From positions 1 to 20,591 of the IMG/VR virus record IMGVR_UViG_3300020470_002869: 20,591 nt of DNA; one strand, 5' to 3'. The stretch's first letter is position 1; every line of letters begins with the position of its first letter. The stretch comes from a virus. The notes under the pieces are model-generated. The model had not been told where the DNA came from and ran no database searches. It saw only the letters and a program-made list of their open reading frames with translations. The position numbers were made by a program, and so were the translations under genes. Shown piece by piece: positions 943-19,272 of this stretch.

Positions 943-1344
943 ATGCCTTTACAAAGGGTAAGCCAAGGATTTAAGGATATTAGTATGACATTCCAGAGTA
1001 ATCCTCTGAATGATGACCTTATTGCGCTTAAAAATGAGAATGCAATTGCTCGTTCTATACGAAATATTGTATTTACCCTCCCTGGAGAGAAATTTTTTAA
1101 CCCATCTTTTGGATCTCGCATAAGTGGATCACTTTTTGAGAATATAGATGACATTACTGGTGATGTTATTAATGATGAAATTAAAAATTCTATCAATAAT
1201 TGGGAACCAAGGGTGGATTTAATTGAAGTTATAACAATTCCTGACCCAGATAATAACTCATATAATGTAAGTGTTGAATATGAAATTATTGGAGCAGACG
1301 TTCCACCTCAACAATTAGAATTCGTGTTGCAACCAAACAGATAA
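943..1344 (+). CDS. 25: Baseplate wedge subunit gp25
   Basis: This 133-residue protein is close to the length of T4 gp25 (132). gp25 belongs to the GPW/gp25 family; it sits in the inner baseplate wedge with gp6 and gp53 and helps trigger sheath assembly and contraction. The family core is plain: IARSIRNIVFTLPGEKFF (about 36-53), then NPSFGSRISGSLFEN (54-68), the hallmark G-E-[KR]-x-F-x-P-x-[FL]-G...LFEN pattern, and NWEPRVDLIEV near residues 86-96. The start at 943 gives the expected length and follows the late promoter; the Met at 985 would cut off a conserved-looking amino-terminal stretch. No clear ribosome-binding site is seen. Its stop is separated by one base from the gene 6 start, so the two are probably translationally coupled. 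Confidence 0.95.
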   Translation: MPLQRVSQGFKDISMTFQSNPLNDDLIALKNENAIARSIRNIVFTLPGEKFFNPSFGSRISGSLFENIDDITGDVINDEIKNSINNWEPRVDLIEVITIPDPDNNSYNVSVEYEIIGADVPPQQLEFVLQPNR

Positions 1345-1345
1345 A

Positions 1346-3319
1346 ATGCCCTTAGTTAATTTTTCTAACCTGGATTTTGACCAGGTTAAGACAACTCTCA
1401 GAGAATATTTACAAGCAAACTCGGAATTTACTGATTATAACTTCGAGGGATCGAATTTATCGTCCGTTTTAGATGTTCTGGCATACAATACCTACATTAC
1501 TTCTTATAATGCCAACATGGTGGCAAATGAATGTTTCATTGATAGTGCTACTTTAAGAGAAAATGTAGTCGCATTAGCAAGAAATATCGGATATTTACCT
1601 CGTTCAAGGACGGCTGCAAGAGCAACCGTTAGTTTTTTCGTAGATTGTTCAAGTATTTTACCTGTTCCCGTCTCGTTAACCCTTAAAAAGGGTCCTGTTG
1701 CTGCAACATCGGGTACTTTTGGCAATTCTTCGTTAGTTTTCTCGATTTGTGAGGATATAACAGTCCCTGTTACAGATGGAACTGCAAGATTTAACGATAT
1801 TTACATTTATGAGGGTACTCTTTTAACCTCAACCTTCACAGAATCGTCTGCAAACCCAAATCAACGCTTTATTTTACCAAATTCTGGTATTGATAGCACT
1901 TTAATTAAGGTAAATGTTGCAGATAACCAATTTGCAACCAATGAAGTCACTTATGATTACCAAAATAACCTCTTTGCGATAGATTCTACCTCAAAAGTCT
2001 ATTTTTTACAAGAAATTGAAGACGAAAGATATGAAGTTTTCTTCGGAGACGGTGTTTTTGGCAAAAAACTAGAAGAAGGCAATTTTGTAACCGTAAATTA
2101 CATCGTTTCTAATGGAGATGGTGGAAATGGGGTTCAAAATTTCCAATTTGCCGGAAAATTGGTCTATACAAGGAGTGGAATTGAGTATAATGTCACTTCT
2201 GGCATTTCTTTGATCTCAACTGGACTCCAATCTTCGGGTGGACAAGAAATTGAAGCTGTAGATTCGATTAAAAAGTTTGCTCCTCGTGTTTATGCGTCTC
2301 AAAATCGCACTTTGACGGCAAATGACTACGAAACACTGATTCCAACCCGAATTTATCCCGAAACTGAGTCAATTTCCGTTTTTGGAGGTGAAGATTTAGT
2401 TCCACCTCAATATGGAAAGGTCTTTATTAGCATAAAACCCAAATCTGGCGATTTTTTACCAAATTTGGTCAAAGAAAACATTAAAAGGCGTTTGAAAAAG
2501 TATGCAGTAGCTGGAATTGTTCCAGAAATCCTTGATTTGAAATATTTGTATATTGAAGCACATTCTAAAGTCTATTATAACAGTAATCTTGCTCCTTCTG
2601 GTGCAGATGTCTCTAGCATCGTTCAAAATAACGCAAATAAGTATGCTGAGTCAACTGAGTTAAATAGATATGGTGCTAGATTTAAATACAGTAAATTCTT
2701 GAACATTATTGACCAAAGTCAAGAAGGAATTACTTCAAATATCACAACTATTGATATGAGAAGGGATATGAGAGTCGCATTAAACTCTTATGCAGAATAT
2801 TCTATTGGTTTTGGTAATAGATTCTATATTCATGATATGGAAGGATATAATATTAAAACTTCGGCATTTTTTGTATCAGGAATCAGTAATCCTTGTTATG
2901 TTGGCGATCTTCCTAATACAAATAGACAAAGTGGATCATTATTCTTCTTTACTGTTCCTACAATCAATTCTACCTCTCCAACTATCATTAGAAGGAATGT
3001 AGGTACTATAGATTACACTACTGGAGTGATATCATTGAATCCAGTTAATATTATAGGTGGAAAAATAAAAGATGGTCAGACAATTGTTGAAATTCAGGCC
3101 ACTCCATATTCAAATGATGTTATTGGATTACAGGATCTTTATTTGCAACTAGATATAAGTAAGAGCACCTTTGAAACCGTTGTTGATGAAGTTTCTTCTG
3201 GACTCGACCCATCGGCATCAAATTACGTTGTGACCTCTAGTTATCCTAACGGCAATTTAGTACGCTCTGGTGGGCGTTCTGACGCTACTACAACCGCTAC
3301 TACAGCGACTACCTACTAA
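1346..3319 (+). CDS. 6: Baseplate wedge subunit gp6 (baseplate J-like family)
   Basis: At 657 residues it is nearly the same length as T4 gp6 (660). gp6 dimers link neighbouring wedges and form the continuous inner ring of the baseplate. The amino-terminal part shows the typical helix-rich stretch with YNTYITSYNANMVANE and ENVVALARNIGYLPRS (about 45-90). The central part carries NDYETLIPTRIYP (326-338) followed by a VFGGED motif and PPQYGKVFISIKP, the signature of the gp6/baseplate J family. The ATG comes one base after the gp25 stop. The last dozen residues are a Thr/Ala-rich tail (DATTTATTATTY) that I would not expect to be structured. The gene uses TCG for serine at least 12 times, far more often than the giant gene after it. 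Confidence 0.94.
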   Translation: MPLVNFSNLDFDQVKTTLREYLQANSEFTDYNFEGSNLSSVLDVLAYNTYITSYNANMVANECFIDSATLRENVVALARNIGYLPRSRTAARATVSFFVDCSSILPVPVSLTLKKGPVAATSGTFGNSSLVFSICEDITVPVTDGTARFNDIYIYEGTLLTSTFTESSANPNQRFILPNSGIDSTLIKVNVADNQFATNEVTYDYQNNLFAIDSTSKVYFLQEIEDERYEVFFGDGVFGKKLEEGNFVTVNYIVSNGDGGNGVQNFQFAGKLVYTRSGIEYNVTSGISLISTGLQSSGGQEIEAVDSIKKFAPRVYASQNRTLTANDYETLIPTRIYPETESISVFGGEDLVPPQYGKVFISIKPKSGDFLPNLVKENIKRRLKKYAVAGIVPEILDLKYLYIEAHSKVYYNSNLAPSGADVSSIVQNNANKYAESTELNRYGARFKYSKFLNIIDQSQEGITSNITTIDMRRDMRVALNSYAEYSIGFGNRFYIHDMEGYNIKTSAFFVSGISNPCYVGDLPNTNRQSGSLFFFTVPTINSTSPTIIRRNVGTIDYTTGVISLNPVNIIGGKIKDGQTIVEIQATPYSNDVIGLQDLYLQLDISKSTFETVVDEVSSGLDPSASNYVVTSSYPNGNLVRSGGRSDATTTATTATTY

Positions 3320-3334
3320 GAAATATAAACACCA

Positions 3335-6300
3335 ATGGCAGATAAAAGAGTCCAGTTTAGTAACATAGTTCAAAATCAGCTACCTAATTATGTTAGGGAT
3401 GATTTTCCACTGGTTTCTGAATTTTTAAAGTCTTATTATCAGGGACAGGAATATGAAGGTGGTCCAATTGATCTTATTCAGAATATTGATCAGTATGTAA
3501 AGGTTAGTGAGCAAACTAATCTTATCACTTCTACGACTCTAGATGCTGATCTTACCATATATGATACAACTATCCCAGTTCAGGCATATCCTAATGGAAC
3601 GAATGGATTCCCTGATTCTTATGGATTAATAAAGATTGATGATGAGGTTATAACTTATACAGGAAAGACAGATACTTCATTTACAGGATGTGTTAGGGGT
3701 TTTGTTGGTATTACCTCTTATAAAGCAGAAGCAGATCCACAACAGCTAGTTTTTAGTGATTCTACTGCTGCAACTCATGAAGGTAATCTTTATGACTCCA
3801 CAACGGGTAAAAGAATTCGTGATGGAGTTAAAATTCAGAACCTTAGCAATCTTTTTCTTACTGAATTTTTACTAAAGACCAAAAATCAACTATTACCTGG
3901 ATTAGAGGATAGAAAACTAACTAAAGACTTAGATCAGAACGTCTTTATTAAACAAGCAAGTAGTTTTTATTCTAGTAAGGGTACAGATAGATCTTTTGAG
4001 ATTTTATTTAAAGCATTATACAATAAACACGTTGAAATCATAAGACCAAAGGATTTTCTGTTTACTCCCTCAAATGCCAATTTTAGAGTTACTAATGATT
4101 TGGTAGTTGAACCTTATGAAGGTGATCCAATGGATTTGGATCAGTCTACTTTATATCAGGATGAATATCCACGCAGTCCTGGAGTTATAAAGGCATATGG
4201 ACCTGTTACCAACATAGAGAAGATTAATGTTGCAATAGGTGAGACTTATTACCGCATGAGTTTAGATGCTGGTTATAATAGGGATTTAAGAGTTGATGGT
4301 GCAGTTTATGGAGCATTTTCTGTTCATCCAAAAACTAGAGTAATTGGTGATGTATCAATTGGTGCATCATTTATTGATGTTGACTCAACTGTTGGATTTG
4401 CTCATTCTGGAAATTTAGATGTAGTTTATAGTGATTCAACTGCTGGAATTGTTTCTTATACATCTAAATCCGTTAATGAATTCTTTGGAGTTAGTAATGT
4501 AGTTGGAATTATCTCGGATAAGTCATCTGTTGGCATTGATACTTATGCATATGGAACGGCTTTTGGTGGTGATGACGTAATTAAGGTAAAAGTTACCTCT
4601 ATTTTAAGTAAATTAGATTATCCGGATAATACTTACAATTATTCCAGAAATGATACTGCAAGAATTAAGAGTTTAGGTGTTAGAGATAAGAAATTTAAGT
4701 CTAGAGATTGGTTCTATAACTGTGCTCCTGTTTATAAGGTTCATAGTATAGTATTACTTGATGCTTCTGACTGGACATATAAAGTTAACTTATTTAAACT
4801 TCATTATTTCAAGAAAGGTGACTCAGCATCTATTACTGGACCTGATGGTGTAGATAAGGCCACCACAGTTATTGATATAACTTCATCTACTTCTTTCACC
4901 ATTAAGGGTCAAGGAGTTCTTGATGTTAGCAATACTTATACATTTAAGAATAATATATTAAAAACTCTAACCAATAATTTCCCAGGAACTCAAATATATT
5001 CGACAAATGTTCAAAATACTTACAAAAATGGGGACAGTTTATTAATTGCCTCCTCATCTATACCATCTTATAATGCTCAAGCACTGAATACTACTGATAG
5101 AAAAATTACTTTTAGTGGTGCTTTTGTTGGAGATGAGTTTAAAATAACAACTACTACGGATCATGGATACCGTACTGGAGAGGCTATCTACTATAGACCT
5201 CAAACAGACACTCAAAGTTATGTTGATAATGTAACTCTTGAAACAAAATATAGGACAGTAATAGTATCTCAGTTATTTGATGAGGGTCTGTATTATATTA
5301 AGAGAGTTGAGGGAAGTACAACAACTGTAAAATTTGCTAAGAGTAGAACAAATATCTATAACGGAATATTTGTTTCTCTTGATAATTCTGTTACTGTAAC
5401 TGATAATAGTATTGAACCTTATGAATTTAGGAATAAAGGATTACATTCTCAAAGACTTTTAAGAGAAGTTAACCCTTCTCATAATGATGGTGAGATTGTT
5501 AAGACAGAACCAGGTGCAACTGGTATTTTAATTAATGGTGTTGAGGTTTTAAACTATAAATCTAATGATTTAGTCAAATATGGAAGAATTGAAGAGATTG
5601 AGGTTACCTCTCCTGGATCTAACTATGATCTGATTAATCCTCCTGTTTTAAACGTCTCAGATGCCACTGGAGTGGGTGCAACAGGATATGCTGGACTTAC
5701 TGGATCATTAAGTGGAATTAGGGTTATAGATCCTGGTTTTGATTATGAAGAAACTCCAAGAATTAAGATTTCTGGTGGTAATGGTCAAGGTGCAACGGCT
5801 GCTGTTAATACTAAGTTAACAACTCATAAACCTTTATTCAATTCTGAGGGTGCAGCAGGATATATTGGTCTTACCACTAATACTATTGGATTTGGTACTT
5901 TCCATAAATTCAGAAATGCTGAAAAAGTCATTTATATTACTAGTGGTCAACAAGGAGTTGGTGGAATTACAACAGAAGCAGTATATCACGTTTCTACATT
6001 ATCTAATACAACTGTAAAACTTCATAAGAATGAAAGTGATGCATTAGCAGGAATTAATACTATTAGTCTAACTTCTTATGGTATTGGTCAACATTCATTA
6101 CAATCCTATAAAAAGAAATCTATATTAGAATCAATTAATATAACCAATTCAGGATCTGGGTATCAAAATAAGAAATTAACAGCTCTTGCTACTGGAATTA
6201 GTACATCTAAGAATTCTGTTAATATTGATAAGCATCGTTATAAGAATGGAGAAATTGTAACTTATACATCTAGTGGAACTGTAATTGGTGGATTATCTGC

Positions 6301-9300
6301 TTCTAATCAGTATCAAGTTATTGTTGTAGATGATAATAACTTTAAATTAGCAAATGCAGGAGTTGGTGGTACAGATGCTTCTAATTACAAAAATGGAGTT
6401 TATGTAGATTTCACTAGTTCTGGATCTGGGATTCATTATTTCAATTATCAACCCATTACAGTAACTCTAACTGGAAAAGTTGGAATATCCTCAATTGGTA
6501 ATGAGACTTTTGAGGCTACTGTTCAACCAGTTTTCAGAGGTCAATGTACTTCTGTTCATTTAGAGAATAGTGGTGTTGGATATGGATCTTCTGAGATCGT
6601 TAATTTTGACCGTCAACCTGATGTAACTTTAATACCTGGAGCTCTAGGGCAATTATCACCAATTGTTAGTGATGGAAAAGTTGTTGAGGTATTGGTATTA
6701 AATTCTGGTAAGCAATATCTTGGTCCTCCTGATTTAGAAGTTACTGGAGACGGTAAGGGTGCTGTTCTTACCCCAGTGCTTGAAAATGGTACTATTACTT
6801 CAATTAAAGTTCTGGAAAGTGGTATTGGATATACCCAACAGAATACAAGTGTTAGTGTTGTAACCCCTGGATCTGGTGTTCAGTTTAATAGTATTCTTCA
6901 ACCTTGGAGACTTAACTTAGTTAAGAAGAATTGGGATAGTTTTGCTGATGATGATGGATTTATTACTGAAGGACGTAACATAGCATTTGAATTACAATAT
7001 ACCCATCTTTATGCACCCAGAAAACTAAGAGAATCTGTTTATGCACGAAACTCTGATGGTGCTGTTTTGTATGGTCAAGCAGACTTAAAGAGAGTTGCTA
7101 GTGTTGAAGTTGCATCTACTGACCATTCACCAATAATTGGATGGGCATATGATGGAAATCCAATCTATGGACCATATGGATATGTTGAAAAGGCTGGTGG
7201 TGTTATAGCCGCAATGAAGACGAGTTATCGGATAAAATTAAAAGATAATCGTCCTCCACTTACCGCATTCCCTGAAGGATTCTTTATTGAAGATTACTCT
7301 TATGTTAGGGTAAAGGATGATACTTACCTAGATGAAAATAATGGAAGATTCTGCATAACTCCTGAATATCCTGAAGGAACTTATGCTTACTTTGCTACTA
7401 TCAATGATATTACTGCAGATACATCAGGTCCATTTAATCAGTTTAGAAGACCAGAATTCCCATATTTGATTGGAGACAGTTATCATTCTGTACCAAATAA
7501 CTTTAATTATAAATTTACTTCAAATCAAGAATCGGTAGTTCTTCAGCATACTGATTGGTTAAGGAATATTGATCCTTACAATTTGATGGAAGGGAATTTG
7601 GAGTATGAATATCTTCCTATACCAAATAAACTAAAACAAACAATTGATATTAAAGCAATAAGTGCTGGATCAATTGATGAGATTGGTATTAGTACTGGAG
7701 GATTCTTATATCGTGTTGGAGATACTGTAGTATTTGATAATGTAGAAACTCAAGGGTCTGGAGCATCTGTTAAGGTTTCTAGAGTCAAAGGTAAACCCAT
7801 AAGTTCTGTAAGTGTTGCTTCTAGTACTATTACTGGGGTTGAAGTTTATCCTACTGGAGGGGATGGTGAATATAACATTGTTTCCGCAAGTCCTCACCAA
7901 TTCCTGGATAATGATTTGGTAACAATTAGTGGATTATCTACTACTTCATCTAAAATTGGTGGAACTTATAATGCTGGTATTACTACTGTTGCATTTGCGT
8001 TAGTTGGAGTTGGTACTAGTTCTGTTGGTGTTGCATCTGCTCTTTCTACTGGAATAGTTACTCACTTCAATGTTGATGGTGATTTAGCTCGGATAAGAGA
8101 GAATGATGTTATAGGTATTGGTACAGAAGAGATTAAAGTCTTAAATGTTGAATCACACTTATCCCGTATTAGAGCCTTAAGATCTATTAATGATGTTGGA
8201 ACTGCTCATACAGTTACTTCTGTTTTAACTTTAAAACCTCGACAATTAAAAGTTGATGCTGGATTTAAGACTGATTATCAGTATCGTGTAAATAAAGAAC
8301 TTTATTTTAATCCTGTTGAATCAGTTGGTTTAGGAACTGCATCAGGAGTTGGTATTGGTACAACTATATTCATTTCAAATCCTGGAGCAGGATTAACTCA
8401 AAGGTTTATTCCTACAAGAGCAATTTACATCAGAAATCATGGATTAGAAACTGGTGATCAATTAACATATTCAATTAATGTTGGTGCTGGTATCTCTTAC
8501 ATGCATGATACTGTGGATGGATCTGGAGTATCTACTTTAGAAGATGATACTACTTTATATGCTGCTAAGATAAGTAATGATTTAGTTGGATTATCTACGG
8601 TTGTAGTTGGATTAGGTACAACCACCACATTTGTGGGAATTGCAAGTACAGAACAAGTTTCTTCGACCATGTATTTTGTGGGTGTAGGAACTGGTGTATA
8701 TCATAGTCTTAAGACTAACTATAGCGCAATTACTGCTGAAATTAATAGAAATTTAGTTACAGTATCCACTGGTGAAACCCATGGATTAGAAGGTTCTAAT
8801 TCTGTGTGGGTTGATGTTAATCCATCAGACACTGGTATCAATACTGTTAAGTATAGTGATTTTAATAGAAGGATTTTAGTCAATCCACAAAACTTTACCG
8901 CAGCAGGAGTTAACACTTCAACTAATGCGATAACTATTGCCAATCATGGATTTGTTGGTGGTGAAAAGATTGTTCATACAGCAACTACTCCCGCAGCTGG
9001 TCTTTCTGATAATGGAATGTATTTTATTGTTAAAATTGATAATAATACATTCAAGTTAACTAATAATTACTATCAATCCAATCGATTAACGCCAACTATT
9101 GTTGGAATTACTAGTGCATCTGCTGGAACCATTAATCCAGTTAACCCACCAGTAAAACTTTATAAGGATTCTTCTGTTACATTCGATCTTTCCGATTCTT
9201 CTTTGGCGTATGTTCATGCTGGAACAAATTATCCTGCATATGAGTTGAATTTCTATATTGATGAGAACTATACTGATATATGGGATAAAGTTGGTATTGA

Positions 9301-12300
9301 TAATAAGTTTAAAGTTCAAAGATATGGAACTGTTGGTGTAACTGCTGATGCAAGAATTATTCTAACCGTTGATAAAGATACTCCAGAGACTTTATTCTAT
9401 AAACTGGATCCAATATATGAAAGCGATATTCCCCCTTATAAGACTGAAGTTCTTGTAGATAAAGAGGTTGATTCTTGGGCGGAATTACAAGCACAAGAGA
9501 GTATCTATAATGGTTATCAGGTAATTGGTGTAGGTGCAACTAATACCTTTACTTACAGTATTAAGAAAACTCCTGAAAAGACTACTTATACTCCTGGACC
9601 AACGCAACTTTCTTATGAAACTAATGCAACAAAAGCATATGGTGGTGCTGCTAGATTTGAGATTAAGAATTCTGGAACAAATTATTATTCTCTTCCTGGA
9701 TTTACGACCATTACATCATCTGATGGATATGGTGCGGTTCTTGATATATCCAGTAAGTCTATTGGTAGAATCATAAAGACAAAAATTAGTAATCCAGGGT
9801 ATAACTTCCCAACAGATACAACAGTAAGACCAGATGTTGAATTGGGTATTCTTGCTACAATTAGTCCTTATTATTCCTTTGATCAGATTGGGATAAATTC
9901 TGCTGGAAGAGGATATACTGCAGCACCAAAACTATTAGTATTTGATGGTAAAACCAATAAGCAAATTAAGGATGTACAATTAGAATATGATTTAGGAGAC
10001 TCTGAAGTTACTATTAGAAAGAATACTTCAGGATTAAGTCAAGCAGCTCCTACTCTTCTTCCTACTCAAAATACAAATGGTGTAGCAATTAGTACTGCTT
10101 CATATAATTCATCTACACAAGATGTAACCATTACTTTTGGTAATGTTGGATTTAGTACAGCAAATTCCTTCCCATTTGGTATTGGTGACAAAGTATTGAT
10201 TGAAGGTATAAGTGTTGGTATAGGATCTACGGGAGCTGGTTATAATTCAGCAGATTATGATTATCAATTATTCACTGTTAATGGATTAGATGCTAATTTG
10301 GGTGGTGTTGGTGCTACTATCGGATACAGTCTTGCTGGATTGTTAGATGGTAAAGTTCCTGGTGAATATAACAGTGTTAACTCTGCAGGAAGAGCAGTTC
10401 CTAAGAATTTCTTCCCATTATTTAATATAACATTAAAACCAAATGACTATCTTGATGGAGAAGAAGTAAGTCAGGGAGCTTCTGTTGGTTTTGTAGAAAA
10501 TTGGAATAGAAGAGTTGGTCTTCTTAAAATCTCATCTAGTGATGATTTTGTGGAAGGTGAATTAATTAGAGGACATTCTTCTGATACTCAAGGACTACCT
10601 GCTGAAATAAAAACCTTTGATTCTGATTTAGAAGTGAGTTCAGTCTCTAGGGTGGAGAATGGTTGGGAAACTTCTTCAGGATTTATTAATGATAATATGC
10701 AGAGAGTTCAAGATAGTTTCTACTATCAAAACTTCTCTTACTCATTAAAATCCGAAGTTGCTTTTGATACTTGGGATGATGCAGTTTCTGTATTAAACCA
10801 CACTGCAGGATTTAAGAAATTCTCTGATTATCAGTTAATGACCCCTGCAGACGCACTTACTAGTGGCGTTAATATGCCAGTTGGGTTAACAACTGACCAA
10901 ACATCATTTGAAGTAGTAAGTGATCTTTATGGAGTTGGTGATTTAAATTGTGTTAATGATTTTGATCTTGCTACAGAAAATTCCCGTAAACAAAATGGGG
11001 GACTTGTTTCTGATGAGGTAGTATTTAATAGTAGAGTTCTTACCGATTATTACGAGTCTGTTGGTAACAGAGTTCTAAGTATTGATGATATGAGTGGATC
11101 CTTTAATAGTAATCCACGTCCTACTCCATTTAGTGTTGTATCTCAATTCCCATTGAATACAAGACAATGTATGAAGTATATTACCTATGTAAGAGATAGG
11201 AGATTTGTTGGTCAAAGACAAATTATGGTTGTTGATCTTGTTCATGATGACTCCTTTGGATATATTAACCAGTATGGACAAGCAGGAACTGTATATCCTC
11301 TTGGATCATTTGACTTCTCTATTGTAGGTACTGATGGAAGACTTCTATGGTATCCAAACAACTATAAGGTTAATGATTATGATGTGGTAGCTATTGCTTA
11401 TAACCTTGACAACAATATTTTAGGAATTGGTAGCACTAGTCTTGGTTGTGCAGAAATCTTTACAAGTAGTACTGAAATTGCAAGTGGAGCAACTGAAACT
11501 CTTGTTTCTATTGGTTATACGTACAGATCTTTGAAGGTCTTAGCATCTATTAGTGGTTCTACTCATAATGAGCATGAGATGGAAGAGATTAATATCATCC
11601 ATGATGGAACTACTGTTGATGTAATGGAGTATGGTCAACTTACTTCCAATTTAGGTAACTATGTTAATGTATCTGGATTTGGAACTTTTGTACCATCCAT
11701 TTCAGGAACTGATATTAATATTGACTTTAAGGCAAATACAGGTATTGCTTGTACTGTTAATACCATTGTAGTTGGACTTAGCACTGGAGCCTATGTTGGT
11801 GTTGCAACTAATCAACTTAAGCATGTAACTCTAGAATCCAAAACCACTGCTATCGCTGCTTCTGGTACACCTGGTATTCATACAGTTGGTAGGTATTTGA
11901 CATTATCTGGTGATGATGATCATTATGATGCTGCTTACTTTATAGCACAGGTTGAAGATACAACCAATAATACCTATACAATGCAGGAGATTTTGGTTGT
12001 TGATGATTATAATACAACTTTAGGAACTACTGAATCTTATATTGTAGAATATGGTAATGTTGAAACGGTAGCTGGTTTAGGAACTTTTGGTGTCAGACTG
12101 GATACCAGTGCATCTGCTAAGTATACCGAACTTACATTTAAACCAAATCCAAGTATTGCTACTCAGGTTAAGGTGTTTATGAATGCCTTCCAAATTGAGG
12201 ATGATGATAAAGATATTATTGAATTTGATAATGGTTCAATAGAGACAATGTATAATCTCTATGAGGGTACTGATAGATCAATTAAGAGAGCATTTGATCT

Positions 12301-15300
12301 TACTCATAAGAACAATGAAATCTTTAATAAGTCTTTCACTGGTAATGACGTTCAAATTGTAGATACTACAAATAATACAATTCGTTTACCTAATCACTTC
12401 TTTGTAACGGGTGAGGAAGTTAAGTATGTTCATGCTGGTGCTGGAACCAGTATGGCAATAGGAATTGGTCTTACTGATGGATTCTCTGGTATTGGTAATA
12501 CCAATAAACTTCCAAGCAGTGTTTTTGTTTATAAAGTTAATGAAGATACTATAAAACTATCTGCTACTGCAGCGAAGTCATTAAGACGTATTCCGGAAAC
12601 TATTGGTATTACCACTGTTGGTGTTGGAACTTCTCATAGATTTGCAGCTGTTAATCAAAATGCTAAGTGTATTCTTGGTTTAGATAATATTATTCAATCT
12701 CCTGTAGTTGCAACTTCTGTAACAACTGGTCTTGCTAAGACATGTTATACAACAGATGATCTTCTTACGTTTACTGGTATTACATCCTTTATAGGTGGAG
12801 ATCTGATTAAACTGGGTGATGAGATAATGAGAATTGATGGGGTTGGTATAGGAAGTACCAATGTCATTAGAGTTCGTAGACCTTGGTTGGGAACGGCATT
12901 ACAGAGTTATCCACCTGCTACTCAGGTAACTAAGGTTAATGGAAACTATAATATTGTTGAAAATACTTTAAACTTTGTAGAAGCACCCTATGGTAATCTT
13001 CCATTAAGTACAAGTACAAACCAACCTGATGATAGAGATTGGACTGGTATTTCTACATCATCTAGTTTTGCTGGAAGAGTATTCTTAAGAGGTGGTGTTC
13101 AAGATACTTCTAATGAAACTTATTATAAGAATAAAGTTCTTGATGATATTTCTGGTCAATTTACTGGGGATAGAAGATACTTCACTTTAGAATCAGATGA
13201 TTCTAATATTACCGGAATTGCTACTGAGAATGCTGTTATTTTGATTAATGACGTATTCCAAGGACCAGCAGCAGATCTTGATTATACACTGGAAGAAAAT
13301 GCTGGTATTACCTCTATCAGATTTACCGGAACTGCAACATCTATTGCTAACGATGTTAATACTTCAAATCTTCCTATTGGTGGTGTAATTGTATCAGTTG
13401 GATCTACTGAAGGATTTGGATATCAACCTTTAGTCGCTGCTGGTGGTACTGCTACGGTTTCTACTGCAGGAACAATTAGTGCTGTTACTCTTAGCAATAC
13501 TGGATCAGGATATAGACAAGGTGTTGGTCAACTTGTTAATGTCGGAATTCAAACTCAGGCAACTAGAGGTACTAATATTGTAAGTATTGGTACTGCATTT
13601 ATTGGATCTAGTGGTGCTCTAACAGGTGTAGCCGTTACAAGCACATTTGTAAGTTATAAACCAAAAGATATTTCACATGTTGGTTATAACTCAGAAACTG
13701 GTATTAGTACTATCACAACTGCCTTTAATCATAACCTATCGGCAGGTGATGAGATTGCTCTATCAGGAATTGCATTTACCTGTGAATATGCTCCTCCTTT
13801 AGGAATTAACACTGCACTTTATGATGGTGTTGCTGGTATTATGACAGTTTATACAACTACTGCTCATGGATTGGTAGTTGGTAGTAAGACTAAGGGTAAT
13901 GTAATATTAACCGGAATGGCATTTACATGCTCTCTTGATAGTGGAGCATATCAGCATATCTATCCAAGAAATAGAGATAGGTTCTATGATACATCAATTG
14001 ATGTCATTGGAGTTGGAAATACCCTTACTGCAAACAATGCGGTATATGATCCAGTAGTTGGTATCGTTACTATTACTACTACTGTTAATCATGGATTGGC
14101 AATTAATGATAAAATTACTATTGCTGATGACTCATTAACCTTTACTTGTGCTAAAGATAATAATGAAACAGAACATAGTTATCCTAGAGCAGGAGATTAT
14201 GCAAGTGGTAAATGGTTAAATGTTTTAAGTGTTCCAGGAGCAAAGAGATTCTCTGTTAAGATTCTTGATTATACTCCTTCAACCAATACTACTGCTCATA
14301 CATTTGTTAGAGCAGCATCTTCTGGAATTACTACACAGACTGGTAATATTACAGTTAATGTAACTGCTGCTGATCCTAAGTTCCAATATGCTCATACATT
14401 TGTTGGAGTAGGTACTACAGGACCAGTTAAGAGTGGTGGTGCATATGGTCACAACTTTGTTGGGGCTAAAGCAGGAGCATTAATCAGTGGTGGTAGTTAT
14501 TTGCATTCCTTCTCAAGTGCAGTTGGTGGTGGTACATCTATTGTGGGTGTAGGTACAACAACCCCCACAGACGCTACATATGACGCTGAGACGGGTCTTT
14601 TAGTCCTTACCATACCAAATCATGGTGCGACCACTTCAAACACTGTAGGGATCGCTACAGGCGGTATTTCATTCAAGTGTTCCTTAGATGGATATGAGAC
14701 TATTCATGCATATCCTCGTCGAAGTGATCCAATCTCTGATGATTATACTATACCAATTACTGAGGTAACTGGGGATACTATTACCATTAATGTTGGAGTT
14801 TCTACTTTAGTTACATTTACTCCAAGTGCTGCCACTTATAATGGTAATACGGGTGATATGGTCTTAACGGTATCCAGTCATGGTTTACGTGGTTCTACGG
14901 ACCATACAGTAGTACATGCAGACTATAATCCTACTACAGGTATTATGACATGTATGGTTCCTAATCATTCATTTGTTAATGGTGATAGGGTTAAGTTTGC
15001 TGACGATTCTTTAACATTCACTTGTGCTAAAGATAGTCATGCAACTCAACATACTTATCCAAGAGCATCTGATCCTAAGGCTAATAAGTGGTTAGCAATT
15101 ACTGGTGTAACAACTAGTGTCTTTGAAGTTCAGGTATTAGATACAATTCCATCTACAAATACTGGTGTTCATACCTTTGTTAGTGCAACTACTAATGGTA
15201 TGGCTAAAGCAGGTGAATCTGTTCGATTAGCGAATGAAGGATTTACATTTACTTGTGAAATGGATCAACATGGAACTCAGCATTCCTATCCACGCGGTAC

Positions 15301-17686
15301 TGATCCAATGTACAATACTGCGGTATCTGTTGGTGCTACTACTGCGGATACATTAACTTTAAATGTTGGTAGAACTCCACTTAAGCAATATCCTGCTAAT
15401 ACTTCAACTTACTATCACACTACTGGTGATTTAGTAATCGGAGTTGGAACTCATAATATTACTAAGGGAGATGCTATCAAACTTGGTAGAGAGTCATTAA
15501 TCTTTACTTGTGCTAAGGATAGTAATGCTACTAGACACAGTTATCCTAGAGAGGGTGATCCAGCATATGCAGGTGTACCAGTTGCTGGTATTGTAAGTGC
15601 AACCGGATTTAGTGTTGATATTGGAGTTACTACAACAACCAATTACTATACTGGTGCTACATCATATGCTTCAGTTCAACCTGTTATCATTGCACCTAGA
15701 CCAACTGATGAAGCTGCACCTGGTGCAACAGTTCTAACAGTTCTTGGTGATAAGCAATTTGAAGTACAAACTGGTATTTCTACACGTAGACATTATTATG
15801 CAAGAGGTGGACGTGTTGATAAACCAATGGATGTAATTATTGATGATCCAGAATCTTATTCTAACTTGTCACTTGAATACAGTAGTTCTTCTTCTGGAAT
15901 CGGAACTGAAGCAACTATTGATGTGGTTGTTGGAGCAGCAAATAGTATGATTAATTTCCGGATTCAGAATACCGGATATGCTTATCAACCTGGAGAAGTT
16001 CTAACAGTTCCATATGGTGGAACTACAGGAATTCCAACCACTTCTGATTTTGGTAGTAATGAATTCCAGATTACTGTTGACACTGTTCATACTGATGAAT
16101 TTACAGGATGGACACTTGGAACTCTAGAAAAATTAGATGATGTTTCTCATCTATTTGATAGTGGAAGAACTCAGTTCCCATTAACTCTTGCAGGAACTAC
16201 TGTTTCTATTAGAGCAGGTAAGGGATCTGTTATTGATGTTCAAGATGTTCTTTTAATCTTTATTAATGATATCCTACAAGTTCCTGGTGAAGGATACAAG
16301 TTTGGTGGTGGTAGTATTATTGAATTTACTGAAGCACCTAAGTCTGGTGATACTGTTAAGATTCTATTCTATAAGGGATCTGGTGATGATGTTGATGTTA
16401 TCTTTAAAGCAATCATCGAAACAGTTAAGAAGGGTGATACTATACAACTTTATAATAATGATGATCAAGGAGATTATTGGAAGGAAAATCCAAGAGCAGT
16501 TACTCGTGTAACATCTACTGATACTGTTGATACTAATCCATACTATGGTCCAGGAAATACTTCTATAGAATCAATGCTTAGACCAGTTAAATGGTGTAGG
16601 CAGACTGAAGATAGAATTATTAATGATGTTGCAGTCGGAAAAGATAGAGAGTTGTATGAACCAGTTATTAATCCAACAGCACTTCTTATTCAATCTGTTG
16701 GAATTGGATCAACACAATGTTATGTTCAGAGTGTAAGACCATTCTTTAATCCTAAGAATGAGATTAATAATGCACCTTCTCTTACTTTCCAAGATAAGAT
16801 TAAGTTTACTATTCCTGCAGGAACCAAGACTGGTGCAGCTGCAACAGCAGTAGTTTCTGGATTAGGAACTATTTCATCCTTTGATGTTACTGAAGGTGGT
16901 AGTGGGTATTCTGCTGCTCCTAGTGTAAGTGTTGGAAAGACTACTGTTGGAGTTGGAACTACATCAGACGCTATTGGTACTGTAACGATAAGTGGTGGAG
17001 TTGTTACTGGAATTGCAGTTTCTGTAGGCGGTGCTGGTTATAGTCAAACAAGTCCTCCTCAAGTTCTTGTTGGACCACCAACTGCTAAAGAAGAAGATTG
17101 TGATGTAAGTGGATATGCAGGTGATCAAGGAACTATTGTTGGGTTCGGTACAACAACAATTAGTACTAATCCTTATATGATGTTTGACTTCTTTATTCCT
17201 GTAGATTCTTTCTTAAGAGATTCTTTAGTAATGGTAGATGCTGCAGGTGGTGGTGGAATTGTTACTGTTAGTGGAATAAGTACCGCAGATTACTTTGTAG
17301 TTGAGGGTTCTAATGTTGGTCTCGCTACAACTTCATTTACTTCTGCTTCTTACGGTATTGGTAGTACCGTAGGTACAGGAATATCATTTATAGATAATGT
17401 ATATCAAGTTAGTGATTTTGAAATAGTAAATATAAATGTTACAGGTGTAGGTTACACCGATTGTAGCAGAGTTTATGCTCGACTTACAGATACCTATTAT
17501 GGTGGATGGGTTGGTATAACCTCTTCACCTGACTTCGGATCCTATAGTTGGGGTAAGATTGATCTATCATCTAGATCTGTTTCTACTTCCTACAATGCAT
17601 ATACTTCTAACGGAGTTACTGGACTTTCTACAGGTTCGAGTGTAGAAAGATTTGCTTCTCTGAAGTTCAAGTCTTACAACGTTTAA
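3335..17686 (+). CDS. Giant virion structural protein (4,783 aa), probable gp7 baseplate-wedge counterpart
   Basis: One uninterrupted frame of 4,783 codons lies between genes 6 and 8, the place of gene 7 in T4 (gp7 is about 1,030 residues). Residues 20-56 and 204-237 resemble the conserved C-terminal part of T4 gp7 (for example FYSSKGTDRSFEILFKALYN). After this comes a beta-rich mosaic: GxGY units mainly at 755-1190; His-Gly loop units around H610, H857, H967, H1521, H1702, H1816, H1871 and H3021; a YHYH-like domain near 1250-1356; a cupredoxin-like segment near 1945-2030; a YYQNFSYSLKS segment near 2463; Cys/His YPR repeats at 3480-4076; and more GxGY units near the end. G-[VIL]-G-[ST] turns recur throughout. 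There is no signal peptide, membrane segment or obvious enzyme motif. The start at 3335 is 15 bases after gp6 and lacks a ribosome-binding site. A virion role is near certain; equivalence to gp7 is an inference from position and the first 240 residues. Confidence 0.9.
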   Translation: MADKRVQFSNIVQNQLPNYVRDDFPLVSEFLKSYYQGQEYEGGPIDLIQNIDQYVKVSEQTNLITSTTLDADLTIYDTTIPVQAYPNGTNGFPDSYGLIKIDDEVITYTGKTDTSFTGCVRGFVGITSYKAEADPQQLVFSDSTAATHEGNLYDSTTGKRIRDGVKIQNLSNLFLTEFLLKTKNQLLPGLEDRKLTKDLDQNVFIKQASSFYSSKGTDRSFEILFKALYNKHVEIIRPKDFLFTPSNANFRVTNDLVVEPYEGDPMDLDQSTLYQDEYPRSPGVIKAYGPVTNIEKINVAIGETYYRMSLDAGYNRDLRVDGAVYGAFSVHPKTRVIGDVSIGASFIDVDSTVGFAHSGNLDVVYSDSTAGIVSYTSKSVNEFFGVSNVVGIISDKSSVGIDTYAYGTAFGGDDVIKVKVTSILSKLDYPDNTYNYSRNDTARIKSLGVRDKKFKSRDWFYNCAPVYKVHSIVLLDASDWTYKVNLFKLHYFKKGDSASITGPDGVDKATTVIDITSSTSFTIKGQGVLDVSNTYTFKNNILKTLTNNFPGTQIYSTNVQNTYKNGDSLLIASSSIPSYNAQALNTTDRKITFSGAFVGDEFKITTTTDHGYRTGEAIYYRPQTDTQSYVDNVTLETKYRTVIVSQLFDEGLYYIKRVEGSTTTVKFAKSRTNIYNGIFVSLDNSVTVTDNSIEPYEFRNKGLHSQRLLREVNPSHNDGEIVKTEPGATGILINGVEVLNYKSNDLVKYGRIEEIEVTSPGSNYDLINPPVLNVSDATGVGATGYAGLTGSLSGIRVIDPGFDYEETPRIKISGGNGQGATAAVNTKLTTHKPLFNSEGAAGYIGLTTNTIGFGTFHKFRNAEKVIYITSGQQGVGGITTEAVYHVSTLSNTTVKLHKNESDALAGINTISLTSYGIGQHSLQSYKKKSILESINITNSGSGYQNKKLTALATGISTSKNSVNIDKHRYKNGEIVTYTSSGTVIGGLSASNQYQVIVVDDNNFKLANAGVGGTDASNYKNGVYVDFTSSGSGIHYFNYQPITVTLTGKVGISSIGNETFEATVQPVFRGQCTSVHLENSGVGYGSSEIVNFDRQPDVTLIPGALGQLSPIVSDGKVVEVLVLNSGKQYLGPPDLEVTGDGKGAVLTPVLENGTITSIKVLESGIGYTQQNTSVSVVTPGSGVQFNSILQPWRLNLVKKNWDSFADDDGFITEGRNIAFELQYTHLYAPRKLRESVYARNSDGAVLYGQADLKRVASVEVASTDHSPIIGWAYDGNPIYGPYGYVEKAGGVIAAMKTSYRIKLKDNRPPLTAFPEGFFIEDYSYVRVKDDTYLDENNGRFCITPEYPEGTYAYFATINDITADTSGPFNQFRRPEFPYLIGDSYHSVPNNFNYKFTSNQESVVLQHTDWLRNIDPYNLMEGNLEYEYLPIPNKLKQTIDIKAISAGSIDEIGISTGGFLYRVGDTVVFDNVETQGSGASVKVSRVKGKPISSVSVASSTITGVEVYPTGGDGEYNIVSASPHQFLDNDLVTISGLSTTSSKIGGTYNAGITTVAFALVGVGTSSVGVASALSTGIVTHFNVDGDLARIRENDVIGIGTEEIKVLNVESHLSRIRALRSINDVGTAHTVTSVLTLKPRQLKVDAGFKTDYQYRVNKELYFNPVESVGLGTASGVGIGTTIFISNPGAGLTQRFIPTRAIYIRNHGLETGDQLTYSINVGAGISYMHDTVDGSGVSTLEDDTTLYAAKISNDLVGLSTVVVGLGTTTTFVGIASTEQVSSTMYFVGVGTGVYHSLKTNYSAITAEINRNLVTVSTGETHGLEGSNSVWVDVNPSDTGINTVKYSDFNRRILVNPQNFTAAGVNTSTNAITIANHGFVGGEKIVHTATTPAAGLSDNGMYFIVKIDNNTFKLTNNYYQSNRLTPTIVGITSASAGTINPVNPPVKLYKDSSVTFDLSDSSLAYVHAGTNYPAYELNFYIDENYTDIWDKVGIDNKFKVQRYGTVGVTADARIILTVDKDTPETLFYKLDPIYESDIPPYKTEVLVDKEVDSWAELQAQESIYNGYQVIGVGATNTFTYSIKKTPEKTTYTPGPTQLSYETNATKAYGGAARFEIKNSGTNYYSLPGFTTITSSDGYGAVLDISSKSIGRIIKTKISNPGYNFPTDTTVRPDVELGILATISPYYSFDQIGINSAGRGYTAAPKLLVFDGKTNKQIKDVQLEYDLGDSEVTIRKNTSGLSQAAPTLLPTQNTNGVAISTASYNSSTQDVTITFGNVGFSTANSFPFGIGDKVLIEGISVGIGSTGAGYNSADYDYQLFTVNGLDANLGGVGATIGYSLAGLLDGKVPGEYNSVNSAGRAVPKNFFPLFNITLKPNDYLDGEEVSQGASVGFVENWNRRVGLLKISSSDDFVEGELIRGHSSDTQGLPAEIKTFDSDLEVSSVSRVENGWETSSGFINDNMQRVQDSFYYQNFSYSLKSEVAFDTWDDAVSVLNHTAGFKKFSDYQLMTPADALTSGVNMPVGLTTDQTSFEVVSDLYGVGDLNCVNDFDLATENSRKQNGGLVSDEVVFNSRVLTDYYESVGNRVLSIDDMSGSFNSNPRPTPFSVVSQFPLNTRQCMKYITYVRDRRFVGQRQIMVVDLVHDDSFGYINQYGQAGTVYPLGSFDFSIVGTDGRLLWYPNNYKVNDYDVVAIAYNLDNNILGIGSTSLGCAEIFTSSTEIASGATETLVSIGYTYRSLKVLASISGSTHNEHEMEEINIIHDGTTVDVMEYGQLTSNLGNYVNVSGFGTFVPSISGTDINIDFKANTGIACTVNTIVVGLSTGAYVGVATNQLKHVTLESKTTAIAASGTPGIHTVGRYLTLSGDDDHYDAAYFIAQVEDTTNNTYTMQEILVVDDYNTTLGTTESYIVEYGNVETVAGLGTFGVRLDTSASAKYTELTFKPNPSIATQVKVFMNAFQIEDDDKDIIEFDNGSIETMYNLYEGTDRSIKRAFDLTHKNNEIFNKSFTGNDVQIVDTTNNTIRLPNHFFVTGEEVKYVHAGAGTSMAIGIGLTDGFSGIGNTNKLPSSVFVYKVNEDTIKLSATAAKSLRRIPETIGITTVGVGTSHRFAAVNQNAKCILGLDNIIQSPVVATSVTTGLAKTCYTTDDLLTFTGITSFIGGDLIKLGDEIMRIDGVGIGSTNVIRVRRPWLGTALQSYPPATQVTKVNGNYNIVENTLNFVEAPYGNLPLSTSTNQPDDRDWTGISTSSSFAGRVFLRGGVQDTSNETYYKNKVLDDISGQFTGDRRYFTLESDDSNITGIATENAVILINDVFQGPAADLDYTLEENAGITSIRFTGTATSIANDVNTSNLPIGGVIVSVGSTEGFGYQPLVAAGGTATVSTAGTISAVTLSNTGSGYRQGVGQLVNVGIQTQATRGTNIVSIGTAFIGSSGALTGVAVTSTFVSYKPKDISHVGYNSETGISTITTAFNHNLSAGDEIALSGIAFTCEYAPPLGINTALYDGVAGIMTVYTTTAHGLVVGSKTKGNVILTGMAFTCSLDSGAYQHIYPRNRDRFYDTSIDVIGVGNTLTANNAVYDPVVGIVTITTTVNHGLAINDKITIADDSLTFTCAKDNNETEHSYPRAGDYASGKWLNVLSVPGAKRFSVKILDYTPSTNTTAHTFVRAASSGITTQTGNITVNVTAADPKFQYAHTFVGVGTTGPVKSGGAYGHNFVGAKAGALISGGSYLHSFSSAVGGGTSIVGVGTTTPTDATYDAETGLLVLTIPNHGATTSNTVGIATGGISFKCSLDGYETIHAYPRRSDPISDDYTIPITEVTGDTITINVGVSTLVTFTPSAATYNGNTGDMVLTVSSHGLRGSTDHTVVHADYNPTTGIMTCMVPNHSFVNGDRVKFADDSLTFTCAKDSHATQHTYPRASDPKANKWLAITGVTTSVFEVQVLDTIPSTNTGVHTFVSATTNGMAKAGESVRLANEGFTFTCEMDQHGTQHSYPRGTDPMYNTAVSVGATTADTLTLNVGRTPLKQYPANTSTYYHTTGDLVIGVGTHNITKGDAIKLGRESLIFTCAKDSNATRHSYPREGDPAYAGVPVAGIVSATGFSVDIGVTTTTNYYTGATSYASVQPVIIAPRPTDEAAPGATVLTVLGDKQFEVQTGISTRRHYYARGGRVDKPMDVIIDDPESYSNLSLEYSSSSSGIGTEATIDVVVGAANSMINFRIQNTGYAYQPGEVLTVPYGGTTGIPTTSDFGSNEFQITVDTVHTDEFTGWTLGTLEKLDDVSHLFDSGRTQFPLTLAGTTVSIRAGKGSVIDVQDVLLIFINDILQVPGEGYKFGGGSIIEFTEAPKSGDTVKILFYKGSGDDVDVIFKAIIETVKKGDTIQLYNNDDQGDYWKENPRAVTRVTSTDTVDTNPYYGPGNTSIESMLRPVKWCRQTEDRIINDVAVGKDRELYEPVINPTALLIQSVGIGSTQCYVQSVRPFFNPKNEINNAPSLTFQDKIKFTIPAGTKTGAAATAVVSGLGTISSFDVTEGGSGYSAAPSVSVGKTTVGVGTTSDAIGTVTISGGVVTGIAVSVGGAGYSQTSPPQVLVGPPTAKEEDCDVSGYAGDQGTIVGFGTTTISTNPYMMFDFFIPVDSFLRDSLVMVDAAGGGGIVTVSGISTADYFVVEGSNVGLATTSFTSASYGIGSTVGTGISFIDNVYQVSDFEIVNINVTGVGYTDCSRVYARLTDTYYGGWVGITSSPDFGSYSWGKIDLSSRSVSTSYNAYTSNGVTGLSTGSSVERFASLKFKSYNV
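3392..4045 (+). other. gp7-like wedge module at the amino terminus of the giant protein
   Basis: Residues 20-237 start with a helical segment (RDDFPLVSEFLKSYYQ) and end with FYSSKGTDRSFEILFKALYN followed by KHVEI. Between them is an inserted beta segment at about 60-165 (KIDDEVITYTG, then FTGCVRGF). From memory, T4 gp7 has a matching pair of segments near residues 700-830, including FYSTKG and FLFKVLYN. This is the only part of the giant protein I can tie to a T4 wedge protein. A profile comparison against gp7 would settle it. Confidence 0.6.
5600..6880 (+). repeat. GxGY beta-repeat cluster in the giant protein
   Basis: About six units occur between residues 756 and 1182, with a common pattern: hydrophobic strand, [NDE]-[ST]-[GP]-x-x-Y, a Pro-containing strand, a [GS]-x-G-x-G-A turn, then the next strand. 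Examples are VTSPGSNY, VIDPGFDY, ITNSGSGY, LENSGVGY, VLNSGKQY and VLESGIGY. Two FCCH-like units interrupt the series. Further copies lie near ISTGGFLY, IKNSGTNY, INSAGRGY, LSNTGSGY, IQNTGYAY and VTEGGSGY later in the protein, and one in gp8 (VSNQGSGY). They probably form stacked beta sheets or a beta-helix-like spacer. Confidence 0.65.
7082..7402 (+). other. YHYH-like domain within the giant protein
   Basis: Residues 1250-1356 include GWAYDGNPIYGPYGY (1269-1283), the most recognisable element of the YHYH family (PF14240). They end with ITPEYPEGTYAYF (to 1353), where the family normally has a YP-x-G-x-YHYH-like ending. Here the closing histidines are replaced (YAYF). FPYLIGDSYHS follows about 35 residues later. 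The domain occurs in bacterial secreted proteins and phage structural proteins; its role is unknown to me. Confidence 0.75.
9167..9424 (+). other. Cupredoxin-like segment without the copper-site ending
   Basis: Residues 1945-2030 begin with VTFDLSDSSL and pass through a strand and loop (ELNFYID, then VGVTADARIILTV) to TPETLFYKLDP. This resembles a widespread marine phage and bacterial beta-sandwich unit that starts with an F-D-x-S-D-S-S-L strand and ends with a L-[FY]-Y-x-C-x(2)-H-x(2)-M segment. The Cys, His and Met are missing here. The family comparison is from memory. Confidence 0.4.
10682..10876 (+). other. YYQ-x-FSY segment of the giant protein
   Basis: Residues 2450-2514 contain DSFYYQNFSYSLKS (2460-2473) and, after a short helix-like stretch, LNHTAGFKKFSDYQL (from 2487). 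Sequences of the form D-x-[FY]-Y-Q-x-[FY]-S-Y-x-[IL]-[KR]-S followed by H-x-[AG]-G are, to my knowledge, frequent in marine phage structural proteins. It marks a break between the beta-repeat half and a less repetitive segment (about 2440-2900). Confidence 0.45.
13772..15562 (+). repeat. Cys/His 'FTC ... H-x-YPR' repeat cluster in the giant protein
   Basis: Six clear copies share the pattern F-[TK]-C-x(2)-D-x(5,6)-H-x-Y-P-R-x(2)-D, with cysteines at residues 3532, 3605, 3782, 3897, 3974 and 4059. A seventh (C3483) keeps only AFTC. Examples are FTCAKDNNETEHSYPRAGD and FKCSLDGYETIHAYPRRSDP. Spacing varies from about 50 to 180 residues because each motif is preceded by a small His-Gly unit and followed by a variable strand region. 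The block at 14132-14329 is repeated at 15008-15202 with similar protein sequence throughout. Cys and His in every copy suggest a metal site or a conserved turn. Confidence 0.8.
14381..14512 (+). repeat. Short H-x-F glycine repeats in the giant protein
   Basis: Residues 3683-3726 contain three short repeats, YAHTFVG, YGHNFVG and YLHSFSS, separated by glycine-rich linkers. The last two are each preceded by SGG (KSGGAYGHNF, ISGGSYLHSF). Related HTFV segments occur near nucleotides 14297 and 15170 (PSTNT, two residues, HTFV). Confidence 0.6.
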
Positions 17687-17718: not shown

Positions 17719-19272
17719 ATGGCCGCTATTATAACTGATCAGATCAGAATATTAAATGCGAAGAACTTTGTCGCTGGTGTACAAACTAGCACCAATGCGT
17801 ATTATTCTTTTATTGGTCTACCCAATGCAACTGATATTCAAACAGATTGGGATACGTCTCCTCCTTCTCCCAAAGACTGTTTTGACGAGGAGAATAACTA
17901 TTGGGATTCCATTATTGCTCTGAAGAAGATTACTTCTACAGATGTAAGACAAGTAGTACCTAAAAGAGCTTGGAAGTCTGGAACTACTTACGATTACTAT
18001 CGTAGTGATTATAGTCGTTCCAATACTGCAAAAGTTTCTGGTGCAACTAACTTATATGCGGCAACATACTTTGTAATGAATAGTGATTATAGAGTTTATG
18101 AGTGTCTTCAGAACGGAACTGATCCAGATAATCCAAATGGAAAACCATCTCTTGATGAACCAACCTTTACAGATCTAGAGCCAAGAACTCCTGGAACTAG
18201 TGGTGATGGTTATATTTGGAAGTATCTTTATACAATTAAACCTGGAGATATTGTAAAATTTGATTCTACAGACTTTATTCCTGTTCCTGATGCATGGGAA
18301 ACAAATACTGACGATGCATCTGTTAGGGATAATGCTGTTGATGGATCTGTTAAGATTGTAACTATTACTGATAGGGGTGTTGGGGTTGGAACTGCCAACA
18401 GAACTTACAGTAGAGTTCCTATTAAAGGTGATGGTACTGGAGCAGAATGTACAATCGTTATCAATAACGATCAACAAGTTGAATCAGTAACTGTCTCGAA
18501 TCAGGGATCTGGTTATACTTTCGGTAATGTTGACCTTGTAAATGGTGGAGTTCCCACTGGATCTACAAGACCAACTTTTGATGTAATTATGTCTCCTCCT
18601 GGTGGACATGGTTCTGACATTTATAGTGAATTGGGTGCATATAATGTTCTTCTTTATTCAAGAATTGAGAATGATATTGAAAATCCCGATTTTATAACAG
18701 GTAACCAGATTGCAAGGGTTGGTGTTGTTGAAAATCCTAAGTCATATGGATCAACAACTAATCTAAGCCTTGACAAAGCAACTGCATTGAATGCTCTTAG
18801 ATTGAGTGGTGCTGGTTATAGTAGTGCTACTTTTACTGCTGATTCCTTTGTAACTCAAACTGTTGCTACAGGATCTACTGCAGTTGGTAGAGTTGTTAAT
18901 TATGATCAAACTACTGGTGTATTAAAGTACTGGCAAGATAGAACCATGGCAGGTTTTAACACTGTTGGTGCTGCTATTACTAACCCTGTTTATGGGTATG
19001 ATCAAATTGAATTTACAAGTTCTCCTGCTACTGGCGGAAGTTTGACTATTGTTCCTTCAACAGGATCTAATTTAGCAATTAATACATCCTTTACGGGTAT
19101 AAGTACCGTAATAAATAATAGAACGTATTATCTTGGTCAATCATTCACTAATGGTTTAGCGAATCCAGAAGCTAAAAAGTATTCCGGAAACATCATCTAT
19201 GTTGATAATAGACCATCTATTACTAGGTCTGCCAACCAAAAAGAAGATATCAAAGTTATTTTGCAGTTCTAA
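17719..19272 (+). CDS. 8: Baseplate wedge subunit gp8
   Basis: gp8 is a peripheral baseplate-wedge protein that in T4 joins gp7 and gp10. Conserved features here are VVPKRAW (79-85), YFVMNSDYRVYECL (about 116-129), GDGYIWKYLYTIKPGD (162-177) and a C terminus, YSGNIIYVDNRPSI then QKEDIKVILQF, which parallels the T4 ending (IYMENRPPI, EEINILFTF). At 517 residues it is about 180 longer than T4 gp8 (334). The extra length falls at about 205-450 and includes a GxGY repeat (VSNQGSGYTF, about 259-268) like those in the giant protein. The start is the first ATG after the promoter and yields the typical amino-terminal VAGVQTSTNAYYSFIG. No ribosome-binding site is seen. The next gene begins 6 bases after its stop. 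Confidence 0.93.
   Translation: MAAIITDQIRILNAKNFVAGVQTSTNAYYSFIGLPNATDIQTDWDTSPPSPKDCFDEENNYWDSIIALKKITSTDVRQVVPKRAWKSGTTYDYYRSDYSRSNTAKVSGATNLYAATYFVMNSDYRVYECLQNGTDPDNPNGKPSLDEPTFTDLEPRTPGTSGDGYIWKYLYTIKPGDIVKFDSTDFIPVPDAWETNTDDASVRDNAVDGSVKIVTITDRGVGVGTANRTYSRVPIKGDGTGAECTIVINNDQQVESVTVSNQGSGYTFGNVDLVNGGVPTGSTRPTFDVIMSPPGGHGSDIYSELGAYNVLLYSRIENDIENPDFITGNQIARVGVVENPKSYGSTTNLSLDKATALNALRLSGAGYSSATFTADSFVTQTVATGSTAVGRVVNYDQTTGVLKYWQDRTMAGFNTVGAAITNPVYGYDQIEFTSSPATGGSLTIVPSTGSNLAINTSFTGISTVINNRTYYLGQSFTNGLANPEAKKYSGNIIYVDNRPSITRSANQKEDIKVILQF

Follow-up and report, generated by a model that had tools for sequence, protein, structure and literature searches.

Gene content of the window

The window, i.e. 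the whole stretch of DNA analyzed, is a complete IMG/VR virus record of 20,591 bp, in which all the listed genes lie on the + strand. Its main features are the following:

943..1344, +, gp25-like baseplate wedge subunit (PHROG_261, E=5e-56)
1346..3319, +, gp6-like baseplate wedge subunit (PHROG_219, E=2e-183)
3335..17686, +, giant protein of 4783 aa, at the gp7 position of a cyanophage baseplate operon (PHROG_2885, baseplate wedge subunit)
7109..7405, +, YHYH domain (PF14240, E=5.6e-25), aa 1259-1357 of the giant, outside the repeat array described below
17719..19272, +, gp8-like baseplate wedge subunit (PHROG_438, E=5e-166)
from 19279, +, further structural gene, start only

The giant matches PHROG_2885, a cyanophage baseplate wedge subunit at the gp7 position, with E=0 and 3870.9 bits, the best stretch covering aa 1-3834. 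The order gp25-gp6-giant-gp8 is the T4-like 25-6-7-8 order; the cultured relatives may have one or two further genes, gp9 among them, between the giant and gp8, and the orthologues of the giant in cultured cyanophages are annotated as gp7, baseplate wedge initiator or structural protein. The giant thus takes the same place in the gene order as T4 gp7 but differs from it in size, the T4 protein being about 1000 aa long. We speak of a "gp7 position" because the giant reaches only 14.0 bits, under the cut-off of 27, with the Pfam wedge-subunit model PF23786, and because T4 gp7 is held to be absent from cyanomyophages, with VrlC in its place (PMC7029224). The YHYH domain has been predicted to be a Zn-binding, tail-associated hydrolase (PMC7824862). 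An open-ended ORF at positions 1-477 of the window matches PHROG_1574 (unknown function) and, weakly, a glycosyltransferase family; PADLOC gave no matches.

The repeated unit and its slot

The giant ORF contains six copies of the pattern F[TK]C-x2-D-x5-H-x-YPR-x2-D, with FTC or FKC at aa 3530, 3603, 3780, 3895, 3972 and 4057 (nt 13922, 14141, 14672, 15017, 15248 and 15503). When the slot region was shuffled 20,000 times, the full motif never appeared and H-x-YPR alone averaged 0.00135 per shuffle against the 6 observed, so that the six copies, first pointed out in an earlier note made from the sequence, are real. The same note had rightly described the protein as poor in cysteine, this residue being found 22 times in 4783 aa (0.46%). 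A seventh, degenerate copy, with FTC at aa 3481 (nt 13775), keeps the Cys and has lost both the Asp and HxYPR; its presence explains why the interval drawn earlier starts at 13772. In the window the motif is part of a unit that spans about 75 aligned residues, hereafter YPR unit, and all copies lie within a single variable slot:

13658..15811, +, variable slot, aa 3442-4159, optional YPR-unit array between conserved flanks (40 orthologues compared)
13679..13813, +, degenerate or truncated unit, aa 3449-3493, FTC kept, HxYPR lost
13814..14038, +, YPR unit 1, aa 3494-3568
14039..14266, +, YPR unit 2, aa 3569-3644
14573..14800, +, YPR unit 3, aa 3747-3822
14918..15139, +, YPR unit 4, aa 3862-3935
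15155..15373, +, YPR unit 5, aa 3941-4013, modelled together with unit 6
15404..15628, +, YPR unit 6, aa 4024-4098, at the canonical 85-aa spacing from unit 5

Forty orthologous ORFs retaining both flanks contain from 0 to 11 units, in slots ranging from 0 to 1725 aa, and slot length closely follows unit number (r = 0.97), with a slope of 144 aa per counted unit, a figure which includes degenerate units and linkers. All of the 115 units found in these proteins fall inside the slot, and none outside. By the motif count, the cultured phage S-SSM7 has 11 units in its slot. The slot is reduced to 0-1 aa in six cultured phages, Bellamy, S-B05, SynMITS9220M01, S-B43, S-SCSM1 and DSL-LC03; metagenomic orthologues were chosen for holding the motif, and the share of empty slots is therefore not an estimate for nature. 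The full-length P-TIM68 orthologue aligns to aa 3-3441 (38.5% identity) and 4160-4660 (45%) of the window protein, and has 93 residues without the motif in between. No YPR units are found anywhere in the genomes of P-TIM68, S-SM2 and DSL-LC03, and the array is therefore dispensable for a viable phage. The slots of P-TIM68 and S-SM2 (L160 and L166) both hold about 90 motif-free residues, perhaps a different optional module.

Recent tandem amplification was considered as the source of the array, and rejected: sibling units from the same protein resemble each other hardly more than units taken at random do (0.49 vs 0.48), and there is rough collinearity between orthologues, window units 1, 2, 3, 5 and 6 finding their best matches in units 1, 2, 3, 5 and 6 of a seven-unit orthologue (L077). 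Similarly, over the 120 nt that surround the Cys, paired copies in the window are identical at just 40-70% of bases, and so do not stem from a recent duplication at the DNA level. Since slot length tracks unit number and six slots are empty, the array is an optional, ancient and position-conserved module at one fixed site of the giant. The earlier note had recognized the array, but missed both its optional nature at a fixed site and the fact that the motif marks a predicted hairpin of a full domain of about 85 aa.

Residue conservation

Within the window Cys, Asp+3 and His+9 (counting from the Cys) are invariant across the six units, as noted earlier. Strict conservation does not extend to the His in the relatives, where Cys and Pro are near-invariant across 613 units. 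To limit the bias of the search pattern, the 302 units departing from the strict motif were examined separately; they were still found by a profile rewarding the motif, in loci holding strict copies, and the resulting figures, Cys 99.3%, Pro 99.7%, Tyr 89%, Arg 88%, last Asp 81%, Asp+3 77% and His only 46%, are somewhat generous to the motif. The His position is taken by Lys in 105 of these 302 units (34.8%), most of which retain Cys and Asp, and in some units by Gln, Thr, Glu or Ile, with the Cys still present. His and Lys units are mixed in the cultured phages P-SSM7, S-TIM4 and P-SSM2, while the single units of Syn33 and ACG-2014a keep the Cys and feature LVHPR or ISYPD instead. Outside the hairpin, units are very divergent.

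The presence of Asp+3 is associated with that of His or Lys at +9 (odds ratio 25), and the presence of Arg+13 with that of Asp+16 (odds ratio 30). The two associations persist when similar sequences are down-weighted, and are partly confounded, as subfamilies losing several motif residues together can inflate the ratios.

These observations bear on the functions that had been suggested for the conserved residues, namely metal binding, a disulphide or some other link. A Cys/His metal site is unlikely because Lys so often replaces His, and so is an intra-unit disulphide, as the motif Cys is the only one in 525 of 587 units and no second Cys position recurs. Links within the chain that depend on a partner unit do not fit either: the Cys persists in the single-unit arrays of Syn33 and ACG-2014a, and a partner in cis is therefore unneeded. 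It is more likely that the conserved residues stabilize the hairpin than that they form a Cys/His metal site or an intra-unit disulphide.

Predicted fold and comparison with known domains

Unit 6, modelled by AlphaFold2 with 111 aligned units, is predicted (pLDDT 92.9, pTM 0.79) to consist of beta strands apart from two short helical turns; a model of units 5 and 6 together gave lower values (pLDDT 81.5, pTM 0.62). DSSP assigns the stretches -4..-1 and +8..+11, between which the Cys-x2-Asp turn lies, to strands, and covariation among units between -3 and +10, and between -3 and +8, fits their antiparallel pairing in a single hairpin register. Such pairing would bring Phe-2, Cys0, His+9 and Tyr+11 onto one face of the hairpin.

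When the single-unit model was compared to the PDB by Foldseek, the phi92 endosialidase was retrieved with probability 0.89-0.91 and a TM-score to the query of 0.51-0.58, along with the FCCH domain of E1 (2v31) and EndoNF (probability 0.57-0.69). Every E-value was 0.3 or higher, and 0.33 or higher for the endosialidase, but the top matches are consistent with one another. Endosialidases were also among the best structure matches of the two-unit model. In a viral library the best match was gp7 of S-SSM7 (1.2e-15). The YPR unit is predicted to be an all-beta barrel module, probably of the general shape of the endosialidase barrel and of E1 FCCH. Profile comparison with the plain barrel-like stretches found elsewhere in the giant gave only a 23-column match, with a probability of 44%.

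The endosialidase beta-barrel (PF12195; EndoNF/K1F, phi92) may resemble the unit in its all-beta fold, and is found in phage adhesion proteins; in the K1F enzyme it has been described, in a preprint, as a polysialic-acid binding site and a hotspot of host discrimination (PMC12632334). The two differ in that endosialidases are trimeric enzymes with one barrel per chain, while YPR units form tandem arrays. Moreover, the C...HxYPR hairpin was not found by sequence in the barrel, the unit profile retrieving no endosialidase chain at E <= 10, and PF12195 does not match the window units; among relatives its best E-value is 3.5e-5, and the L012 protein scores 14.8 bits against a cut-off of 35. The FCCH domain of ubiquitin E1 (PF16190), of similar general shape by Foldseek, is a domain of a cellular enzyme without the conserved hairpin motif, in contrast to the YPR unit, which is a virion repeat. 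The Pfam scan found no PF16190 match in the window protein; in related phage units the best E-value is 5.1e-4, and only L012 passes the cut-off (29.9 vs 29.5 bits).

Ig-like domains are mobile, optional modules common to unrelated phage virion proteins, whose close relatives may be without them. They differ from YPR units in fold and sequence, and YPR units reach up to 20 copies per ORF. Optional Ig-like domains are referred to in a study of crAss-like phages, which reports variable tandem arrays of BACON domains in tail proteins, with position-conserved units in one lineage, and proposes a role in host binding (PMC6949934). Like these, the YPR array is a variable series of tandem beta-domains in a tail protein; unlike them, it is made of another domain, not matched by the BACON model in the Pfam scan of the window protein, and sits in a slot inside a cyanophage baseplate protein. 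By its organization, the YPR array may be regarded as analogous to phage Ig-like or BACON arrays.

Distribution of the unit

Searching by tblastn with the repeat region retrieved 377 phage records, all named Synechococcus, Prochlorococcus, cyanophage or marine virus, while 329 phage records were found with the unit consensus. A scan for the DNA pattern identified at least 120 stretches in viral contigs and 27 in genome contigs, mostly marine MAGs. A plasmid search gave no matches. Most of the matches in genome contigs lie in marine MAGs or single-cell genomes, and are probably mis-binned or co-captured phage DNA. A bacterial origin of the units was considered: the Nonlabens and the Prochlorococcus assemblies involved both carry a T4 gp23 capsid gene.

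A profile built from the six copies, as suggested in the earlier note, could be extended to 725 unit matches in related loci. In these proteins the commonest spacing between consecutive units is 85 aa (55 pairs), followed by 86 (23) and 87 (18). Besides the orthologues of the giant, other giant proteins of the tail-fibre type are filled with YPR units, up to 20 per ORF.

That no named family covers the motif, as had been supposed, was borne out by the searches: neither Pfam nor NCBIfam has an entry for the motif or the unit, PHROG_1276 covers it as "unknown function", and a PDB sequence search gave only chance-level matches (iota-carbonic anhydrase, E 0.0015-0.005 without a significant stretch, and CTP synthase). 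No account of the motif was found in the literature. The YPR unit is thus undescribed, while the principle that virion proteins can carry small beta domains in an optional array is known.

Proposed role of the array

We propose that YPR units are barrel modules, held in their fold by the conserved residues, of an optional baseplate arm that makes weak contacts with the host surface; as a whole, this explanation is given a probability of about 47%. Each motif would be the signature of one all-beta module of about 85 residues with a single Cys, in which the FTC and HxYPR strands would pair as a hairpin, its conserved side faced by Cys, Phe and Tyr. Asp+3 with His/Lys+9, and Arg+13 with Asp+16, are probable charge pairs, so the conserved residues would serve to hold the fold. 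Modules would be arranged head to tail at the fixed insertion slot of the gp7-position giant, and also in other giant tail-fibre proteins; the resulting arm, optional and variable in length, would be exposed on the outside of the baseplate, where its most likely function is to lengthen or multiply the weak contacts made with the host surface. This last function is a best guess, and a plain spacer is nearly as likely.

A pure spacer, i.e. an inert arm that determines how far the baseplate or an attached fibre can reach, with no binding and with residues conserved for folding only, appears somewhat unlikely. It would fit well with the presence of 0-11 copies at a single site, the linear increase in length, the divergence of units outside the hairpin, and the fact that no conserved surface patch was identified on them. 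However, the units are old and keep their order by position, rather than being recent, interchangeable copies, and in tail-fibre giants they adjoin lectin-like domains.

A further proposal is that the lone Cys stabilizes the mature virion covalently, through disulphides between chains, a Cys-Lys/His link or some other modification. In its favor, the Cys is, with Pro, the most durable residue of the motif, even off the strict pattern, and is predicted to lie on the same hairpin face as His/Lys+9; but each unit usually has only one Cys, which persists where a single unit has no partner in cis, and survives the replacement of His by Gln, Thr, Glu or Ile. Cross-linking by the Cys is possible but unsupported, and we consider it improbable as an account of the array. 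Least probable is the binding of Zn or another metal by Cys0, Asp+3 and His+9 of each unit, which are invariant in the window and within one predicted hairpin, since Lys, a poor metal ligand, so frequently stands in for His, and Asp+3 accompanies His or Lys alike, as in a charge pair; this reading is replaced by the simpler one of residues holding the fold.

Taking the preferred reading, fold-held modules contacting the host, one step further, YPR units might constitute a new family of barrels binding cyanobacterial surfaces, and the slot could serve marine T4-like cyanophages as a natural host-range cassette, in which the number and order of units would set adhesion range or reach; we regard this extension as speculative and rather doubtful. 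Ocean sequence data abound in giant baseplate and tail-fibre proteins of T4-like cyanophages, most of them annotated just as "structural protein". A defined repeat domain, the order of its units, and a fixed slot that occurs in nature with none, one or eleven of them make one such giant testable, and cultured phages differing in the slot allow comparison of adsorption and virion structure.

Other giants bearing YPR units

Laminin_G_3/ConA-like lectin domains are found in two giants bearing YPR units, at aa 398-528 of L012 and aa 811-934 of L137. Both proteins also contain helical stretches matching the Phycobilisome model PF00502 (cut-off 22.2 bits), at aa 608-657 of L012 (26.2 bits) and aa 1471-1509 of L137 (22.2 bits), which may represent either mimicry or a chance helical match. 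The L137 giant is encoded in contig NZ_RMVE01000006.1 of Nonlabens xiamenensis; it may derive from contamination or from a T4-like phage that infects a non-cyanobacterial host, the assembly of this flavobacterium isolate being the one that also encodes the T4 gp23 capsid protein.
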